Assembly: GCA_022566435.1 (NCBI GenBank)
Contig: JADFIX010000057.1
Span: forward strand, 1 to 10,435
Reading direction: 5' to 3'
Source of the DNA: Planctomycetota bacterium
GTDB taxonomy: Bacteria > Planctomycetota > Phycisphaerae > UBA1845
Length of the DNA: 10,435 bases
Part shown: positions 1-9,390 of the stretch, one piece after another
How positions within the stretch are numbered: the first letter of the stretch is position 1
Layout of the letters: every line of letters begins with the position of its first letter
The notes under the pieces: model-generated
What the model saw: only the letters and a program-made list of their open reading frames with translations
Database searches by the model: none
Told to the model about the DNA's origin: nothing
Position numbers and translations under genes: made by a program

Positions 1-1069
1 TGGTGACTGGTCCGGCCGGCTCGACCGGGCCGCTGTGACCTTCCGGCCTCGACGTCGAGCGCCGATGCAAGATTCGCCGGCCTGTCGCCCCAGCCAATCG
101 CTCGCGCCTCTCCTGCAAATCGCGATCTCGCCATTCCGCGAATTTTTCGCCGGCATCGCGTAAGGTACTTGCTGCCCGTCGTGGGTTGATGCGCGCCCGT
201 TTGCGGTTGGCAGCTCGATCCGCCAGCTTGTCCCCCTTGGGCGGCGCGTCCGGCGACGTTTCTGGGGTTGGCGTAACTCCGGGACCAGTGCCCGGCGCTG
301 AACGTAATACGGGGCTGTCGCGTCGGGGCGGTCGGAAGTCGTTTTCAGGGGCCTCATATCGCACAACGCGCGGGCCTTGAAGCTTGGCCGGCGCCGGCAC
401 ATGTTGCGGTCCGGCGGGTGTGACGGGCTCGCGTTTGGTTTTTTCCTTCGTCGCTTCCGTCTCCGGTTTCTCTTCGTCATCCGCTGTCGTCGCGGGACTT
501 TCGCCGGTCGGTGGTGCCAACTCCACGACCGTCGGTGTCGAAACGCCGGATGGCAAGTCATTGGTTGACGCGGTGTCCGCCGGTTCCCCTGAAGAAGGCA
601 GCGTCACCTCGGCAACGGCAGATACCGCGCCCACGGATTGTCCCACCGGTTGCCCCTCGGCGACCGGCATGAGCTCGGAAGCCGCCGCTGTGCCGCTCTT
701 GAACTCCGCCAGTTCATCAACCGCGACGGAATCGTGGTGTGTTCCGGCGACAACTTCGGCCGCGACCATGGTGGAGACTTCCGCCGCGACTTCCGATGCA
801 CTGGCTTCGAAGGCGACTTCTTGCTTCTTGGGAGGAACTCGTTTCTTCCTCTTCGCAGCGGCGCGGACCTTCTTGAGGTCAACCGGCTTGGCGGTCTCCA
901 GTGCGCTATCTTGGGACCCTTCGCTAAACCACTCTATAATGGTCGCGTGAAGGCCCGCACTCAGCGTGGACATGTGATTCTTGACCGCGTCGATGCCTTC
1001 CGCACGACACTTTGTGATAATGTCCTTGCTGGCTACGTTCAGTTCCTTGGCGAGGATATGAACGCGCAT
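1..1069 (-). CDS. infB: Translation initiation factor IF-2, N-terminal part (gene runs off the left edge)
   Basis: IF-2 is the GTPase that places initiator fMet-tRNA on the 30S subunit and promotes 50S joining. Only the first 356 codons are in the window; the G domain lies beyond position 1. Residues 1-50 (MRVHILAKELNVASKDIITK onward) form the IF2_N domain. Residues about 60-85 are Lys/Arg-rich, and 85-225 are a long Ala/Glu/Pro/Thr low-complexity linker. A conserved stretch follows at 229-242 (KLQGPRVVRYEAPE), then an Arg-rich helical region at 285-337 containing EWRDRDLQERRERLAG, which I associate with planctomycete IF-2. The frame is open from the ATG to the edge. Upstream, GGAG lies about 14 bases from the ATG, a weak ribosome site. 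The gene follows nusA after a 95-base gap, the usual nusA-infB order, so co-transcription is likely. The call rests on the N domain, the conserved segments and the context. Confidence 0.94.
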   Translation of the reverse strand, partial: MRVHILAKELNVASKDIITKCRAEGIDAVKNHMSTLSAGLHATIIEWFSEGSQDSALETAKPVDLKKVRAAAKRKKRVPPKKQEVAFEASASEVAAEVSTMVAAEVVAGTHHDSVAVDELAEFKSGTAAASELMPVAEGQPVGQSVGAVSAVAEVTLPSSGEPADTASTNDLPSGVSTPTVVELAPPTGESPATTADDEEKPETEATKEKTKREPVTPAGPQHVPAPAKLQGPRVVRYEAPENDFRPPRRDSPVLRSAPGTGPGVTPTPETSPDAPPKGDKLADRAANRKRARINPRRAASTLRDAGEKFAEWRDRDLQERRERLAGATGRRILHRRSTSRPEGHSGPVEPAGPVT

Positions 1070-1164
1070 TTTTTCAGCCAAAACTCCACTCCGTCCAAGC
1101 TACCGCAAACCAATCCAATCGGGCAAAGGCGCAACGCTACTCGCTTCGCGCTGGCAGACCCGCG

Positions 1165-2595
1165 TCACGTCGCCGCGCCGTCCTCTTGGACGACGTCTAC
1201 TTCCTCTACGGATTCGGTTTCCACACCCTCTGTGTCGGTCGATGCATCCTTCGTTTCTGCGTCATCCGAAGGGACCGCGCCTTCCGATTGTTCGGCGTCC
1301 GCCGATTCGGATCCGGGCTCGGCATCGCCTTCGTTCTCCGCCACGGCTTCCGCGAGAGAATCATCATCGCCAGCCTCAGTCTCGGCTTTCGCCTCAGCCT
1401 CGGCGGCTTTCTTGGCCTCGATCGCGGCCTTTCTGGCAGCCTCCGCCTCTACCGCCGCTTGTTTCGCACCCTCCGCGGCGGCGTCCAGGACTCGGTCTGC
1501 CAATTCCGGACTCATCTCCAAGTCGTTCATCAGTGGATCGCGGCCGATTCCCGCAAAATCCGCCAGAGAGACGATGCCCATCGCCAGCATCTTATCCAGG
1601 AGGAGGTCCTCGATGCCTTCGACGTTCTTGAGCGCGCGTTCCACGCCGTCGACGTTTTTGTCGTATTCCGCCGGGGTCAGGATGTCGATGTCCCAGCCTG
1701 TCAACTGGGCGCCCAATCTGACATTCTGCCCACGCTTTCCAATCGCCAACGAAAGTTGATCTTCGTCCACAATCACGGTCGCCCGTCCAAGTTCAAAGCA
1801 CAGGTGGGTCTCGCGCACTTCCGCGGGCTTAAGCGCGTTGGATATAAGAACTTGCGACGATTCGTTCCACCGAACGATATCAATCTTCTCTCCGCCGAGT
1901 TCGTCCACAATATTGCGAATACGGCTACCGCGAACACCGACACAGGCGCCCACGGCGTCGACCTTCATGTCGATCGACGAGACGGCGACCTTGGTACGAT
2001 ATCCCGCTTCTCTCGCCAGCGCACGAATCTCGATAATCCGTTCCGCGACTTCGGGGACTTCCAACTCGAAGAGCTTGCGGATGTAGTCCTTGTGAGTTTG
2101 GGTCAAGATGATCTTGACCTGCGTCTGATCCTCTCGGACGTTGAGAATCATGGCCCGGATTCGCTCGCCGGGATGATGGGCGTCGCCGGGAATCTGCTCG
2201 CTTCGCGGCAAAAAACCCTCGCCCCGCCCCAAGTTGACGGTCAACCCCGCGGATTCATGCCTCGTCACCGTGCCGGTAACCACCGTGCCGACACGCTCCG
2301 AGTATTCATCGAAGATGGCGCTTCGCTCGTCTTCGCGTATGCGCTGGATCATGACTTGCTTCGCGATCTGCGCGGCGATGCGACCGAGGGTCTTCATATC
2401 GATGGGCTCGCCGTTTACCGTCGCGTCGATCTCACCCGTCGTTCGATCGATTACGATGATGACATCTTCAGCACCGTCAAATGCCTTCCGTGCGGCCGAC
2501 ACCATCGCCGCTTCCAGATCAAGGAACACGAACTCCTTCTCGATGTTCTTGTCTCGACTGATCGAATCGACAAATCTTATGAGATCGGCGTTCAT
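1165..2595 (-). CDS. nusA: Transcription termination/antitermination factor NusA
   Basis: NusA binds RNA polymerase and nascent RNA and modulates pausing, intrinsic termination and antitermination. The 476-residue protein shows the standard order. Residues 1-100 are the NusA N domain (DSISRDKNIEKEFVFLDLE, then the IAAQIAKQVMIQRIREDER helix). Residues 101-168 are an S1 domain (RVGTVVTGTV, GRGEGFLPRSE). KH1 follows with GACVGVRGSRI at 216-226 and KH2 with LAIGKRGQNVRLGAQLTGWD at 283-302. Residues 318-372 resemble a helix-hairpin-helix-like region (VEGIEDLLLDKMLAMGI), not a full pair of E. coli-type AR repeats. The tail is unusual: 373-408 is an Ala/Glu/Lys helix (possible coiled coil) and 409-476 is strongly acidic and low in complexity. 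The ATG start matches the family N-terminus; the nearest SD-like bases (GGAAGG) are rather far upstream. No rimP precedes it; instead there is a long structured leader with an intrinsic terminator. Confidence 0.97.
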   Translation of the reverse strand: MNADLIRFVDSISRDKNIEKEFVFLDLEAAMVSAARKAFDGAEDVIIVIDRTTGEIDATVNGEPIDMKTLGRIAAQIAKQVMIQRIREDERSAIFDEYSERVGTVVTGTVTRHESAGLTVNLGRGEGFLPRSEQIPGDAHHPGERIRAMILNVREDQTQVKIILTQTHKDYIRKLFELEVPEVAERIIEIRALAREAGYRTKVAVSSIDMKVDAVGACVGVRGSRIRNIVDELGGEKIDIVRWNESSQVLISNALKPAEVRETHLCFELGRATVIVDEDQLSLAIGKRGQNVRLGAQLTGWDIDILTPAEYDKNVDGVERALKNVEGIEDLLLDKMLAMGIVSLADFAGIGRDPLMNDLEMSPELADRVLDAAAEGAKQAAVEAEAARKAAIEAKKAAEAEAKAETEAGDDDSLAEAVAENEGDAEPGSESADAEQSEGAVPSDDAETKDASTDTEGVETESVEEVDVVQEDGAAT

Positions 2596-2712
2596 TGCGA
2601 TCCAATGATTCCTTCCGTGCGGCCGTTCATTGCCTGTGATGGTCTCTACACATCCGCAAATTCAACCTGCGTTCGCCAAAGCGAAGCCGGTCGTATTTCG
2701 CCCCGTTCGACC

Positions 2713-2747
2713 AAAAAAAAACGTGGGCGCAAATTGCGATCCCACGT
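2713..2747 (-). terminator. Intrinsic (Rho-independent) terminator upstream of nusA, minus strand
   Basis: On the minus strand ACGTGGG (2747-2741) pairs with CCCACGT (2727-2721). An inner CGCAATTTGCG can extend the stem after a two-base bulge. The final T of the stem and eight more (2720-2713) make a run of nine. The plus strand has no T run on the other side, so it works in one direction. It lies 118 bases before the nusA ATG, and no minus-strand protein gene lies above it. It therefore ends either a small RNA or a regulated fraction of nusA leader transcripts. Confidence 0.82.
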
Positions 2748-2884
2748 GGAGCCAGACAAACCGCCGAAATGGAGTGTCCTAGTTACCGCATCACGCCACT
2801 CCACCCTGGCTCGAAGGCCGTCCATAAAGGAAGACCCCACTCGTGCTGGCCGCAATCAGTCAGCACAAGTCGTTTCTCCACGCT

Positions 2885-2916
2885 GTGCAATCAAAGGGAC
2901 AACTAACACATTGCAC
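2885..2916. repeat. Inverted repeat GTGCAAT / ATTGCAC
   Basis: GTGCAAT (2885-2891) and ATTGCAC (2910-2916) form a perfect 7-bp inverted repeat with an 18-base spacer. The same GTGCAA/TTGCAC core makes up the 16-bp palindrome at 3118-3133. It could be an RNA stem in the leader or a pair of protein-binding half-sites; the sequence alone does not decide. Confidence 0.45.
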
Positions 2917-3046
2917 CTTCAACAAACCAGAGTACGACACCGCGACTTCCATCGCTGCCGAACGCTCCGAATTTTCCGCTCTCTAGCCCAAAAAGACAGC
3001 TCCCGCCGTTTTTGTGTACGAGACTGCCCACTCACGCAAGCCCATG

Positions 3047-3074
3047 ATTATAGACTTCGGCGCTTGGCTGTCAA
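3047..3074 (-). promoter_or_regulatory. Perfect-consensus sigma-70-type promoter reading towards nusA
   Basis: On the minus strand TTGACA (3074-3069) is followed after 16 bases by TATAAT (3052-3047). Both hexamers match the housekeeping consensus exactly, and the start would fall near 3040. That gives a leader of about 445 bases to the nusA ATG, interrupted by the intrinsic terminator at 2713-2747. It is probably the main promoter of nusA-infB, of a small RNA, or of both. Confidence 0.75.
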
Positions 3075-3117
3075 ATCCTCCCGTCCCACTCGGATTCGAC
3101 GAGAGAATTCACGATTT

Positions 3118-3133
3118 TTGTGCAATTGCACAA
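3118..3133. promoter_or_regulatory. Perfect 16-bp palindrome, candidate operator
   Basis: TTGTGCAATTGCACAA reads the same on both strands. Its near edge is about 44 bases upstream of the -35 box of the nusA-side promoter and 170 bases before the lipoprotein ATG, in the shared divergent region. The symmetry suits a dimeric DNA-binding regulator, but none is encoded nearby and I cannot name the family. The half-site core recurs at 2885 and 2911. Confidence 0.5.
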
Positions 3134-3289
3134 TTGACTGATCCCGCCAACAGGCGTTTGGGCTGAAATTGGGCGGCGCATGGTTGAATCTCCGGACGGC
3201 TGCCGATAAACATCGAGTGGTCGCACTTAGCGAGGTTCCGTGCGATTGAAGTGTATATGCATATTTGAAACTGGTGGAAAATTTGGCCT

Positions 3290-3295
3290 GAGGAG
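3290..3295 (+). promoter_or_regulatory. Ribosome binding site of the lipoprotein gene
   Basis: GAGGAG lies 8 bases before the ATG at 3304. A GTG at 3295 is in the same frame but overlaps this site, so the ATG is the better start. Confidence 0.75.
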
Positions 3296-3303
3296 TGCAA
3301 TTC

Positions 3304-3846
3304 ATGAGCTGCGGACGCCGAAAAATATACCTCGCGTGGGCGGCTTCTTGGGTCGCCGGATTGGCTACGATCTTCGTCGGGTGTGCCGGAGACTTTCTCG
3401 TGGATTTCGTGCCCGATCCCAACGCAGATCCCGCGCCGGGGGGTTCGCTCGGACCCGTCACCGCCGACGAGGTGCTCATTCGATTTCGCAATTTCTCCCA
3501 GACCGACGCGGTCAACGTCGAGTTCTTTCTCTCGAATACTCCGCTTGGGACACTGCCTGCAGATCTCCTTGTTGATCAATATGGCACGAGCGCAAGTATC
3601 GGTGTGGCCGGTACCGGCATACTCCAACCTCTTCATTCGGATGAGGTGCTGTTCCCCTGCACCGCAGACTTGGTGATCGGGACAACCGGGGGCACGTTCA
3701 TCGACAATGATACGGGCGAGGTTCGAGGAATCGGTGATATGCGCTGGTCGCGGGACGCGTCGGTCGGGCTATGCGGTCGCAGAGTGACCTTTGGCTTTGG
3801 ACCGGTCGACGACGGTTTCATTACCCGCTTGACGATTGGACAATAG
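3304..3846 (+). CDS. Predicted lipoprotein of unknown function
   Basis: 180 residues. The N-terminus is basic (MSCGRRK), followed by a hydrophobic segment (8-26) ending in IFVGC with Cys27, a lipobox-like site (Phe at -3 is atypical). It is therefore probably a signal-peptidase-II lipoprotein anchored in a membrane. After a Pro/Asp-rich linker (36-50) comes a beta-rich domain: DEVLIRFRNFS at 55-65, NVEFFLSNTPLGTLPADLLV at 71-90, a Gly-rich ASIGVAGTG, then VLFPCTADLVIGTTGGTFID at 115-134. Cys119 and Cys157 could form a disulfide. The pattern suggests an extracytoplasmic beta-sandwich; I recognise no catalytic motif and assign no function. It ends 22 bases before the exported hydrolase-like gene, which has its own ribosome site, so the two are probably one transcript. 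Similar short lipoproteins seem familiar from planctomycetes, but I cannot check that here. Confidence 0.82.
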   Translation: MSCGRRKIYLAWAASWVAGLATIFVGCAGDFLVDFVPDPNADPAPGGSLGPVTADEVLIRFRNFSQTDAVNVEFFLSNTPLGTLPADLLVDQYGTSASIGVAGTGILQPLHSDEVLFPCTADLVIGTTGGTFIDNDTGEVRGIGDMRWSRDASVGLCGRRVTFGFGPVDDGFITRLTIGQ

Positions 3847-5257: not shown

Positions 5258-5285
5258 TTGTCATTCCGCTCGCTGTGATTATAGT
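5258..5285 (+). promoter_or_regulatory. Sigma-70-type promoter of the FHA-phosphatase gene, near-leaderless
   Basis: TTGTCA (5258-5263) and TATAGT (5280-5285) are 16 bases apart, each one mismatch from consensus. The expected transcript start is about 5292, only a few bases before the ATG at 5296. No Shine-Dalgarno sequence precedes that ATG, which fits a leaderless or near-leaderless message. Confidence 0.55.
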
Positions 5286-5295
5286 AGACTTCACC

Positions 5296-6912
5296 ATGGC
5301 ACAACTACGCTACCTCGATGACGCCGGTCAATTGCAAACCAAAACCCTGGACGTCGAGCACTTCGTCGTCGGTCGCGCGCCGGGCTGCCAGATCGTGCTG
5401 GACGACGACACGATTTCGCGAGAGCACATCCGTATCGATATGGAGCCGGACGGTCGATTTCGCGTGCGCGATATGGGTAGTCGCAACCGGTCATTCGTCA
5501 ACGGCGAGTTGACCACCGAAACGCTACTCGTGGCGGGCGACATTCTTCGCGTGGGCGATCGGGTCTTGGAGTTTTTGGACACGACCATCGCGCGCGATGA
5601 ACTGAGCCTCGAAGACCCCCTCACGGGAAATCTCGAACTGCCGGCGGACTGCGATTGGGTCAAATTGAAGAATCCGATTTCTCTTTCGATATCTCAGGCG
5701 GAACGATTGGCCCGGCTATGGAGCGACTTGCCTCTTATGGCACGGGCGGAGGATATTGCCGATTTGGCCTTAGGACAAATGCTATTGGATCTCCAGGCCG
5801 ATCGCGGACTGATCGCGCTTCGCGGCGAGTCCAAGACCGATCTGAGCCCTTTGGCCCATCGAGCACTTCGTCGGCCGACCACCGGGGCGATGACCGCCGT
5901 GAACAAAGCGTTCCTCTTCGCACCGTTCTTGCAAAGCCTGGCTGGACGATACCCTCAAACGGCATCGAAGATCGATGCAAAGGCGTCGTACGCCTCGACG
6001 GCGATCGTCGCGCCGCTGACATTTCGGGGCGACGTCGTCGGAGTTTTGTATATCGATCGCGCCGTTTCGAAGAAGCCCTTTGCGGCGGCCGCCCTGCAAC
6101 AATGCATCGCGGCGGGCGCGCAAATCGGCGCCATGCTGGGTGAGGCGTCGCGTAAGCTTGTACGATCCGCGGCGCGCGAAGGGGTCGCATGGATGACCAC
6201 GCTTCGGCGGGTGCAGTCGGCCCTGGGAACGCCGATCGAATCGAGCGACAGTTTCGCAGTGGCGTCTAAGCGCTTCGCCGGTCGAGTGCGATGCGGGGAC
6301 TTCGCCGATGTCATTCACATCGATGACCAACAATGCTGCGGATTGGTCGTGGATGGGGGGGGACACGGTATTACGGGCATGGTTCAGGCGACAGCCATTC
6401 GGGCGGGACTACGTACATGCGTGTCCGTCTCGGAGGATTCGATTTCGGATCCCGCGCCCGTGTTCAACGAGCTGAATCGAATGCTTTCGACCTCACAGAC
6501 GCGGCAGGTGCTCGCCTGCACGTATATGGGAATCGACACATCGGCCGGCAGGTTGACCTACATTAACGCCGGCGGATCGCCGCCTTTGCTGATGGTGGCG
6601 GCCGGCCGGTTGGTCACGCTCGACCAGCCCTCACTCGTATTGGGAATCGACCCCGACTACGTCTACGAAGCCACCCGCGTCGACCTTCCGGAGGTTTTTC
6701 GGGTTGTCTCTCACACGGACGGCTTGGTGGAAGCCACGAATCGGGCCGGCGAAGCACTGGGCGATCAGCGCCTGCACGAAGCGTTACTCGATCGCGACGC
6801 GTTCGCCGGCGTCGACGAGGTCGTGGCGATGATCGCGGCGTTGTGGTCCAACCACCTGGCCGGCTCACAGCCCGATGACGATGCCCTCGTATTGGTCATC
6901 GGTCACGGATAA
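5296..6912 (+). CDS. FHA-GAF-SpoIIE/PP2C-type serine/threonine phosphatase
   Basis: 538 residues, cytoplasmic, with no membrane segment. Residues 20-95 are an FHA domain that would bind phosphothreonine: VGR at 25-27, TISREH at 39-44, GSRNRSFVNG at 61-70. Residues 135-285 resemble a GAF domain (ADIADLALGQMLLDLQADRG-like helix, then STAIVAPLTFRGDVVGVLYI at 234-253). Residues 310-538 are a SpoIIE/RsbU-type PP2C domain: CGDFADV at 333-339 (usually GGDxxDV), LVVDGGGHG at 350-358, YINAGGSPPLL at 422-432, HTDGLVEATN at 473-482, and DDDALVLV at the end. The likely metal ligands (Asp335, Asp353, Asp475, Asp528) are present, so activity is expected, reversing Ser/Thr phosphorylation of an unknown partner such as an anti-sigma-antagonist protein. 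ATG 5296 is preferred over GTG 5275, which lies upstream of the expected transcript start. The GspE-type ATPase gene follows after 55 bases, so a link to secretion or pilus control is possible but unproven. Confidence 0.9.
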   Translation: MAQLRYLDDAGQLQTKTLDVEHFVVGRAPGCQIVLDDDTISREHIRIDMEPDGRFRVRDMGSRNRSFVNGELTTETLLVAGDILRVGDRVLEFLDTTIARDELSLEDPLTGNLELPADCDWVKLKNPISLSISQAERLARLWSDLPLMARAEDIADLALGQMLLDLQADRGLIALRGESKTDLSPLAHRALRRPTTGAMTAVNKAFLFAPFLQSLAGRYPQTASKIDAKASYASTAIVAPLTFRGDVVGVLYIDRAVSKKPFAAAALQQCIAAGAQIGAMLGEASRKLVRSAAREGVAWMTTLRRVQSALGTPIESSDSFAVASKRFAGRVRCGDFADVIHIDDQQCCGLVVDGGGHGITGMVQATAIRAGLRTCVSVSEDSISDPAPVFNELNRMLSTSQTRQVLACTYMGIDTSAGRLTYINAGGSPPLLMVAAGRLVTLDQPSLVLGIDPDYVYEATRVDLPEVFRVVSHTDGLVEATNRAGEALGDQRLHEALLDRDAFAGVDEVVAMIAALWSNHLAGSQPDDDALVLVIGHG

Positions 6913-6967
6913 TGTCTGGCTTGGTCGGAGTGAATCAGTCTCGACGAAATCTTTACCTGGTGTCAAC

Positions 6968-8644
6968 ATGATTGCAGCCGAATCGGCGGAACAGCGAGTC
7001 ATCTCGAAGCTGCTCAATGACGGTACGCTGACGACCGTCGGTCTGGCGACCATGCGGCGTGAGTCCGAGCTAATGGGCTTGCCGATCGTCGAAGTGCTTC
7101 AGGAGCACGATGTCGTGAGCGAAGCCGAGGTCGCCAACATCTATGCGGACCTGAGCGGGTTTCGGTTTCTCGATCTGACGCGGCGTAAGGCTTCCCGTGC
7201 CTGGGTCCTGACGTTGCCGGAAAACATCGCCCGCAAGAAGAATTGCCTGCTCTTCGGCGAAGTTTCCGGTCAGTTGGTGGTGGCCGTGGCGGACCCGGTC
7301 GACCCGTCGGTCATGGCGGTGATCTCGGCACGTTTCGAGCGCCCGGTGCAATACGTGGTCAGTCCACGTTATCAGATTGTCGAGGTCATCGACGAAATGT
7401 ACGGTAGCGCCCGCGAACAGGGTGCCCGCGTGCGCGCGACCGCCCCGATCTCGACGACCGTGGCCAAGACGTCGGCCACCGGCGTCAATGTCGTAGAGCA
7501 ACTCGACAGTATCCTAGACGAAGCCGTCGACCGACGCGCCAGCGATGTTCACCTCGAATCGGAAACCGATAGGCTTCGCGTACGACTGAGAATCGACGGG
7601 CGGATGATCGAGGTTCGGGCGTACCCGCTGGACGTGGCACCCGCCATGATCTCCCGCGTCAAGGTCTTGGCCACCATGGACATCACCGAGAAGCGAAAGC
7701 CGCAGGACGGGCGCTTCAGCCATCGCAGTTTCGATCAGGACATCGACATTCGCGTGGCCGTCATACCCACGGCACGAGGCGAGCGAGTCACCCTGCGCCT
7801 CTTGTCCTCCGACCGCGGTCGTTTGACGCTGGAAAACCTCGGGATGGGCCTGGAAATGCGTCAGGCGTTCGAGCGATTGATCCGCCGCCCCTATGGAATC
7901 ATCCTCTTGACCGGGCCGACGGGCAGCGGCAAAACGACAACGCTCTACGGCGCGCTGCAGACGATCAACAGCGTCGACAAGCATATCATCACCATCGAAG
8001 ACCCGGTGGAATACCAGATGGCCGGGATCAACCAGGTCGCGGTCGACACCGAGTTCGGGGTGTCCTTCGCGCTTGCCCTGCGGAGCATTTTGCGACACGA
8101 CCCCGACGTCGTCATGGTGGGCGAGATTCGTGACGAAGAAACCGCGCATCTCGCTTTGGAAGCGGCACTCACGGGCCACCTTGTGTTGGCGACGCTGCAC
8201 ACGAACTCGGCCGTGGGGTCCGTCGCACGACTCCTGGACATGGGATGCGAGCCCTATTTGGTGGCCAGCGCCCTGATCGGCGTGATGGCCCAACGGCTAG
8301 TACGTAAAATCTGCCTGAACTGCAAGCGCGGCTACACGCCCAATCGAACCGAGCGTGAAATCATGGGCATTCCGCTGGACCGGACCGGTGCGGAGATTTA
8401 CCGCGGTGCCGGATGTTCACGCTGCTTGCGTACGGGCTATTTCGATCGCGTGGGGGTGTATGAGTTCGTCCCGTTCGATTCCGGGCTCTCCAAGCTGGTG
8501 ATGCACAAATCGACGATCGACCAGATGCACGCCCATGCCGTCGAACACGGTTGCATCACGTTACGCGACGATGCTCTGGGCAAGGTACGCGAGGGTTTGA
8601 CCACACTCGAGGAAGCCCTGCGCGTGACGCGGCGGGAGGCTTGA
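6968..8644 (+). CDS. gspE: GspE/PulE/PilB-type secretion or type IV pilus assembly ATPase
   Basis: 558 residues, a hexameric cytoplasmic ATPase that drives pseudopilus or pilus assembly at the inner membrane. Residues about 10-145 are the N-terminal MshEN/GSPII_E_N region. The N2 domain begins near 172 (LDEAVDRRASDVHLE at 183-197; RLRVRLRIDG at 202-211). The motor domain has Walker A GPTGSGKT at 316-323, the Asp box ITIEDPVEY at 341-349, Walker B LRHDPDVVMVGEIRDEE at 375-391, and the His box TGHLVLATLHTNSA at 402-415. A tetracysteine zinc site is present (Cys449/Cys452 and Cys483/Cys486), typical of assembly ATPases rather than PilT retraction motors. ATG 6968 is preferred to an upstream start overlapping the phosphatase gene; the ribosome site is weak (GGTG). 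No other pilus or type II secretion gene is in the window, so gspE versus pilB is unsettled; the symbol marks the family. All ATPase motifs look intact. Confidence 0.93.
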   Translation: MIAAESAEQRVISKLLNDGTLTTVGLATMRRESELMGLPIVEVLQEHDVVSEAEVANIYADLSGFRFLDLTRRKASRAWVLTLPENIARKKNCLLFGEVSGQLVVAVADPVDPSVMAVISARFERPVQYVVSPRYQIVEVIDEMYGSAREQGARVRATAPISTTVAKTSATGVNVVEQLDSILDEAVDRRASDVHLESETDRLRVRLRIDGRMIEVRAYPLDVAPAMISRVKVLATMDITEKRKPQDGRFSHRSFDQDIDIRVAVIPTARGERVTLRLLSSDRGRLTLENLGMGLEMRQAFERLIRRPYGIILLTGPTGSGKTTTLYGALQTINSVDKHIITIEDPVEYQMAGINQVAVDTEFGVSFALALRSILRHDPDVVMVGEIRDEETAHLALEAALTGHLVLATLHTNSAVGSVARLLDMGCEPYLVASALIGVMAQRLVRKICLNCKRGYTPNRTEREIMGIPLDRTGAEIYRGAGCSRCLRTGYFDRVGVYEFVPFDSGLSKLVMHKSTIDQMHAHAVEHGCITLRDDALGKVREGLTTLEEALRVTRREA

Positions 8645-8709: not shown

Positions 8710-9390
8710 ATGTGCGGACGCTTTACGCTGATATCCCCCGGAGAAGTATTGGCCGAGTTCTTCGAGCTGGTCGATACGCCCACCGTGTTACCGCGCTACA
8801 ACATCGCCCCGACGCAGGCGGTCGGCGTCGTGCGCCACGACTGCGACATCCGCAGGTTCGATCTGATGCACTGGGGGCTCATTCCGTCGTGGGCGAAAGA
8901 CCCCACCATCGGCAACCGAATGATCAACGCCCGGTCCGAAACGGCCGCGACAAAACCGTCCTTCCGATCGGCCGTCAAGTACCGTCGCTGCCTCCTTCCC
9001 ACCGACGGGTTTTATGAATGGAAAGCAATCGCCGGACAGAAACGAAAGCAGCCCTATTACATTCGAATGGCCGACGGTCAGCCGTTTGCTTTTGCGGGAC
9101 TTTGGGAGCACTGGGAAGGCCCGGACGGGGCGGCCGTCGATTCGTGCACAATTCTTACGACCGAACCGAACGAAATGATGGCGGATATCCACAATCGCAT
9201 GCCGGTGATTCTGGACCCCAAAGACTTCGCGCAATGGCTCGATCCCTCGGTACAGGCGGCAGACGTTCTCTGTCCGTTGCTTAGATCGTTTCCACCAGGT
9301 GGCATGAAGGCAATTCCGGTTAACACCACGGTGAATAGACCGTCAAACGATACGGCGGCGTGTATTGAACCGCTCGATGTCGATTCGTGA
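8710..9390 (+). CDS. yedK: SOS response-associated peptidase / abasic-site shield protein (SRAP, YedK/HMCES family)
   Basis: 226 residues, the usual length for bacterial SRAP proteins. The family forms a thiazolidine DNA-protein crosslink with abasic sites in single-stranded DNA through Cys2, after removal of Met1, and so shields them from strand breakage. The N-terminus is MCGRFTL, giving Cys2 and Arg4. Other active-site residues are in place: Asn73 in MINARSE, Glu103 in DGFYEW, and His161 in IHNRMPVIL. RYNIAPTQ (29-36) and HWGLIPSWA (54-62) are further family motifs. The protein should be active and cytoplasmic. Met1 must be followed directly by Cys, so the ATG at 8710 is certain although no Shine-Dalgarno sequence precedes it. 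It stands alone after the ATPase gene (65-base gap), with no LexA-like site or lesion-bypass gene that I could see. Confidence 0.95.
   Translation: MCGRFTLISPGEVLAEFFELVDTPTVLPRYNIAPTQAVGVVRHDCDIRRFDLMHWGLIPSWAKDPTIGNRMINARSETAATKPSFRSAVKYRRCLLPTDGFYEWKAIAGQKRKQPYYIRMADGQPFAFAGLWEHWEGPDGAAVDSCTILTTEPNEMMADIHNRMPVILDPKDFAQWLDPSVQAADVLCPLLRSFPPGGMKAIPVNTTVNRPSNDTAACIEPLDVDS

Follow-up and report, generated by a model that had tools for sequence, protein, structure and literature searches.

A start-stop-like minimal reading frame spaced to a rimP-leader-like terminator ahead of nusA-infB in a Phycisphaerae family: a probable attenuator

The nusA-infB operon joins transcription and translation, and how its products are balanced against ribosome supply is only partly understood. 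The locus described here raises the question of what lies between a strong promoter and the first gene of such an operon. The window, meaning the whole analysed stretch of 10,435 nt (contig JADFIX010000057.1 of a Planctomycetota bacterium, assembly GCA_022566435.1, 939 contigs and 64% complete), carries nusA and part of infB on its minus strand. The leader that precedes them had been taken in an earlier note to be a possible undescribed structured RNA of about 328 nt, either a stand-alone small RNA or an attenuator. Its layout is as follows.

3069..3074, minus strand: -35 element TTGACA, from a promoter scan
3047..3052, minus strand: -10 element TATAAT, 16 nt from the -35 element
2803..3040, minus strand: non-conserved 5' part of the leader (start near 3040 predicted only)
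2799..2802, minus strand: Shine-Dalgarno-like GGAG, 7 nt before the ATG
2783..2791, minus strand: minimal ORF, ATG CGG TAA (Met-Arg-stop), kept in 48/48 leaders
2747..2782, minus strand: linker from minimal ORF to hairpin, 31–44 nt from stop to GTGGG in 48/48 leaders
2722..2746, minus strand: terminator hairpin CGTGGG..CCCACG, whose stem covaries in 30 genera
2713..2721, minus strand: T-tract of nine Ts, read from the window sequence
1165..2595, minus strand: nusA (Pfam KH_5, NusA_N, S1)
2..1081, minus strand: 5' part of infB, running off the window (Pfam IF2_N, E 1.6e-9; start as in the ORF listing)

Both the promoter and the hairpin with nine Ts that the earlier note had read ahead of nusA are present. 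TTGACA-N16-TATAAT, on the minus strand, is the sole 12/12 promoter match in the window, where four promoter-like sites were found against 3.0 expected from shuffles, the other three scoring 10, 10 and 9. The hairpin at 2722–2746 is CGTGGGATCGCAATTTGCGCCCACG on the minus strand, followed by T9; it was not among the results of the terminator consensus scan, presumably because of that scan's loop limit of 8. The statement that no credible ORF lies ahead of nusA could not be kept, as the two-codon ORF at 2783–2791 behind GGAG had been overlooked. Rfam gave no match for the whole window at gathering score, nor did 20 related loci give one at that score, and positions 2600–3300 gave none at E ≤ 10, in agreement with the earlier view that no known RNA family fits. 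A tRNA/tmRNA search found none, and blastn of the leader against plasmids gave no match. Beyond the promoter, the closest plausible frame (3295–3846, plus strand) is divergent and without a Pfam family. Elsewhere in the window, 5275–8644 (plus strand) encodes a protein with FHA and SpoIIE phosphatase domains and, after it, an ATPase of the GspE/PilB type that has a MshEN domain, and an SRAP-domain gene is found at 8710–9390.

The relatives compared included metagenome assemblies of Phycisphaerae and Planctomycetota. In one Phycisphaerae family nusA was found in 48 of 51 genomes, and the leader could be read in all 48, representing 30 genera; hairpin positions were placed by hand in three of them (L015, L022 and L037), and the leader of G001 was taken via L005, nusA being on two contigs and L035 having just 64 nt upstream. 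When 60 genomes were searched by blastn, the leader matched 11 relatives, always directly ahead of nusA and at the 3' end around the terminator (ten matches within query positions 334–380 and one at 289–377, of 391). For the 5' ~230 nt, blastn found no shared sequence and no k-mer exceeded shuffles in 22 genera. Of the 48 family leaders, 32 have an upstream promoter scoring at least 10/12 (27 of them at 12/12), with a spacer of 16 in 31 of the 32, and the predicted start lies 218–274 nt from the minimal ORF in 29 leaders and 140, 189 or 360 nt from it in three others. The other 16 leaders are without such a promoter, and in these a long frame, called ABC-transporter-like by eye from tail sequences and not from a profile search, ends 51–142 nt before the minimal ORF. 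The same module is kept downstream of either. Since the 5' part lacks enriched k-mers and there are two upstream settings, the conserved unit, judged at sequence level, is the Shine-Dalgarno-like element, minimal ORF, linker and terminator, about 95 nt at the 3' end of the leader.

The alignment and covariation test proposed in the earlier note gave a divided answer: the terminator stem covaries across the 30 genera, while the rest of the leader has no consensus structure. RNAalifold returned the terminator stem only when applied to 30 genera, and essentially the terminator hairpin when applied to 48 anchored cores. Within the stem, 97.1% of cells are paired and 16 cells have changed on both sides, compared with 4.2 in shuffles, and slid versions of the stem reached no more than 67.6% paired and three such two-sided changes. 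Of the stem's seven pairs, four are invariant, as is GTGGG in the 30 genera. The proposed structured RNA of ~328 nt is thus reduced to its last ~95 nt, with the terminator as the only consensus structure. An independent structured small RNA, transcribed from a promoter of its own and acting in trans, would fit the bracketing by a strong promoter and a terminator as well as the folding of the leader (z -2.19, with an equally good fold in one of 100 shuffles), but we consider it very unlikely, given that the 5' part is not conserved, that in 16 of 48 genomes an ABC-transporter frame takes the place of the promoter and the 3' module nevertheless remains ahead of nusA, and that consensus structure is limited to the terminator.

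The other possibility raised in the earlier note, that of an attenuator, has gained ground. Compensatory changes preserve the hairpin, and each of the 48 family leaders that could be read has it before nusA. From the end of the T-tract to the nusA ATG there are only 23 nt in L020 and L021, and 36–40 nt in L015 and four genomes of genus g29; the 23-nt gap is too short for an additional promoter and ribosome site, so in these two relatives nusA must be reached by read-through.

The most regular feature of the module is the minimal ORF. An ATG, zero or one codon and a stop, behind a Shine-Dalgarno-like element and 31–44 nt before the GTGGG of the hairpin, occur in all 48 leaders, whereas 200 dinucleotide-shuffled sets gave a mean of 0.295 of 48 and a maximum of 2 of 48. 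The distance window was derived from the same data prior to the shuffle test, so windows slid upstream are the fairer control: at 60–73, 90–103, 120–133 and 150–163 nt, none of them yielded a case with a Shine-Dalgarno-like element, and without that element the counts were 1, 1, 0 and 2. The stop is TAA in 20 leaders, TAG in 20 and TGA in 8. Codon 2 takes 13 distinct forms or is missing (CGC 15, CGA 6, CAC 6, CGT 5, absent 5, GTA 2, TCC 2, and seven singletons). Variation within genera preserves both start and stop: g5 has CGC or CGA with TAG or TAA, g3 has TAG or TGA, and g29 has ATGTAA or ATGTAG. Because stops interchange and codon 2 varies within genera while start and stop are kept, what is conserved is a reading-frame pattern and not a fixed motif, and by this pattern the minimal ORF is under strong evolutionary constraint.

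It could be argued that ATGCGCTAA and its flanks are a site on RNA or DNA to which NusA or some other protein binds, and that the resemblance to an ORF is one of appearance only. NusA binds RNA, and CGC is the most frequent second codon (15/48), both of which would suit a binding site. Such a motif is unlikely, however, as the stops interchange and codon 2 is variable or missing; TGG is never seen at the stop position even though G occurs at both sites (chance about 0.013); and GGAG holds a ribosome-binding spacing, with 7 nt between Shine-Dalgarno-like element and ATG in 32 of 48 leaders, 8 nt in nine, 9 nt in four and other distances in three. Codon 2 encodes arginine in 27 of the 48, a bias that is not explained by the use of the ORF as a gauge of initiation and may have a structural origin.

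The position of the minimal ORF suggests what it may act upon. It lies 31–44 nt from the hairpin and 92–285 nt from nusA across the 48 leaders, and this tight spacing on one side and loose spacing on the other tie the ORF to the terminator. The same distances bear on the alternative that it acts on the translation or stability of the nusA mRNA, by reinitiation or ribosome protection, and not on termination. The two-codon minigenes of LEE1 and axe-txe provide a precedent for such an effect (PMC8708949, available part), but with a terminator between ORF and nusA and a spacing that follows the hairpin, we judge it quite improbable here. A further alternative is a plain NusA-responsive terminator, the ORF being a relic of the arrangement with the ABC gene, at which ribosomes from upstream are released before they reach the hairpin. 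The ABC frame that ends 51–142 nt upstream in 16 of 48 genomes suits this idea; yet the 32 leaders without such a frame still keep the Shine-Dalgarno-like element and ORF, and a Shine-Dalgarno element recruits ribosomes and does not merely release them, which leaves the relic a poor prospect.

The reading preferred here, to which we assign a probability of roughly 60%, is that the leader is a cis-acting attenuator of nusA-infB, combining a rimP-leader-like terminator with a uORF of start-stop-like form, whose probable role is to sense ribosome loading. Transcription would begin at the strong promoter and much of it would end at the intrinsic terminator, nusA-infB being expressed from read-through, as the geometry forces in two relatives. 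NusA could plausibly limit its own synthesis at this terminator, as it is reported to do in Bacillus subtilis. The Shine-Dalgarno-like element would recruit a ribosome to the putatively translated one- or two-codon ORF just before the terminator. With no elongation there, or only one variable codon of it, an amino acid is an unlikely signal for the ORF, and its likely input is initiation, together with termination or recycling; it would most likely report the ease of ribosome initiation, and perhaps also termination or drop-off. Initiation as the input fits an operon with the gene for IF2. A ribosome stationed ~40 nt before the hairpin could then alter termination through its proximity to the RNA polymerase-NusA complex. 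As to sign, we lean slightly (about 55:45) towards negative feedback on IF2, in which a ribosome on the ORF would favour termination. The arrangement suggests that ribosome loading at the minimal ORF may help to set the amounts of NusA and IF2. The fuller proposal, that the attenuator's sensor is an ORF with practically no elongation, which reads initiation, termination or recycling and feeds back on the IF2 and NusA operon, with control of the NusA type combined at the one terminator, is put forward tentatively, at somewhat under even odds.

A classic antiterminator switch was also considered and is unsupported. A hairpin hiding the Shine-Dalgarno-like element is frequent in single folds, and its swap test was weak (median rank 0.375 where 0.5 is expected, with 8 of 30 genera below 0.2), a test that is insensitive where both arms are conserved. 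The swap test found no pairing specific to the terminator (ranks 0.51 and 0.66, near chance). Placing a ribosome footprint on the ORF hardly altered the predicted terminator, the mean being 0.69 when free, 0.74 when blocked and 0.72 with control footprints in 47 leaders (L022 is missing from this set), nine of which rose and four fell by more than 0.1. Neither test revealed an antiterminator, the far 5' part of the leader being covered by the footprint folding alone, and the route from ribosome to terminator is accordingly conjectural.

The terminator itself is of a known type. The rimP-leader is described as a conserved GGGc..gCCC terminator ahead of rimP-nusA-infB with NusA proposed as its regulator, and its general form has no visible antiterminator (Naville and Gautheret 2010, PMC2965389, available part). 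Like that element (RF01770), the one described here is a G-rich/C-rich hairpin with a T-tract before nusA-infB, found in 48 of 48 family leaders. At the place of the GGGc(...)gCCC signature the window has GGGA..GCCC, and GGGC..GCCC occurs in some relatives, such as g29 and several other families. Unlike the rimP-leader as described in the available part of PMC2965389, it has a minimal ORF and Shine-Dalgarno-like element 31–44 nt before the hairpin, and its stem is GUGGG..CCCAC. None of the 51 family genomes exceeded the RF01770 cut-off, with four weak matches on other contigs; only one of 14 controls did so, which makes the RF01770 model a narrow one. A search for rimP (PF02576) was negative in all 51 genomes of this family (f1) and positive in 10 of the 14 controls. 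Because rimP was not found and the RF01770 cut-off was not reached, the element is called rimP-leader-like and is not assigned to RF01770. NusA of B. subtilis controls its own operon through termination in the leader (PMC12288461, available part), and a similar control of operon entry by leader termination is proposed here; the available description of that leader mentions no minimal ORF, which is present in this one. The available part of PMC8060035 contains nothing on nusA autoregulation.

Very short ORFs in leaders have several precedents, all cited here from the parts of the sources that were available. Two-codon minigenes, known from the leaders of LEE1 and axe-txe, share with the present ORF (48/48 leaders) a Shine-Dalgarno element, ATG, at most one codon and a stop in an mRNA leader, and would share with it action in cis; theirs is on the translation or stability of the next gene, whereas the ORF described here is spaced to a terminator, in 30 genera (PMC8708949). 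Amino-acid leader-peptide attenuators (trp, ilv; ilvB1, PMC13236596) likewise place a short ORF before their intrinsic terminator; in contrast to them, there are no regulatory codons here, with zero or one variable codon after the ATG, and no antiterminator was found. An ORF without elongation is also seen in start-stop uORFs, both eukaryotic, as in NIP5;1 (PMC5972666), and at bacterial sites detected in ribosome profiling (PMC11955535). The eukaryotic ones, such as NIP5;1, act on scanning or decay, and the 18 Campylobacter start-stop sites are internal, out-of-frame ORFs of 2–3 codons. No conserved minimal uORF spaced to a terminator was found in the open-licence full texts searched. If the preferred reading is correct, a one- or two-codon ORF kept at a set distance from a terminator in 30 genera would gauge initiation with unusual directness. 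Such an ORF is also easy to miss, being far under the length limits of gene calling and having no regulatory codons for leader-peptide screens to detect. The module is compact (~95 nt) and mutable, and is suited to asking whether a barely elongating ribosome controls an intrinsic terminator.

A covariance model built from 30 of the 48 modules recovered all 48 nusA leaders. Use of the module at other genes was considered and rejected: of the three non-nusA matches with E below 0.01, two overlap long frames and the third is a terminator-like hairpin ending a frame. One weak match (E 0.03, L208, on G003:C20) has GGAG and then ATGCGTTAA ahead of an ORF that by eye is PilT-like, without a terminator.

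Of 150 genomes of the class, 147 contained nusA. Nine of these belong to the family, and from the remaining 138 a set of 99 leaders was analysed, L126 and L091 having been dropped. A nusA-proximal hairpin with a T-tract is widespread in the class, often as AAGTGGG..CCCACTT-TTTT. It was found by script in 81 of the 99 outside leaders, and the 18 without it were excluded from the count. A minimal ORF with a Shine-Dalgarno-like element 25–75 nt before the hairpin was present in 21 of these 81, compared with 0.39 in shuffles (maximum 4); 10 of the 21 fall within some open frame, and five, from families f18 and f9, are doubtful, most of them showing an ABC-like tail. By family, the ORF was seen in six of seven leaders of f8, in the single leaders of f2, f5 and f15, in both leaders of f20, in two of three of f25, one of two of f23, one of four of f22 and one of 16 of f17. 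It was not seen in f4 (0/7), f11 (0/8), f12 (0/3), f13 (0/8) and f16 (0/2), together 0/28 leaders with a hairpin found by script, and was likewise missing from the small sets of f14, f19, f21, f24 and f27. Since the former five families carry the hairpin without the ORF, the ORF is not required wherever the terminator occurs.

Several variants were noted outside the family. In L160, L162, L165, L166 and L167 (f9, f18), GGAG or GGGG precedes an ATGTAG that lies inside a frame ending before the nusA terminator, and most of these frames have an ABC-like tail (..EPEHVA..); the ATGTAG could be a start-stop ORF embedded in the frame, or could simply result from the coding sequence. In L102, L108, L113, L115 and L122 (f17), another conserved element, GGCATGGAGTCAC-nnnn-GTGAC..GCC, lies ~315–345 nt before nusA; it had no Rfam match at gathering score, L115 giving just three sub-threshold matches. 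Five f21 leaders (L121, L123, L128, L143, L150) carry ORFs of 3–4 codons starting ATGGCCGA, behind GGAG(G) and ahead of the nusA terminator. In the Planctomycetia, which lie beyond the window's own class (L186, L188 and L189, f44), ATGTAG or ATGTAA is found by eye upstream of nusA, behind a purine-rich GAGAGG or GCGAGG.
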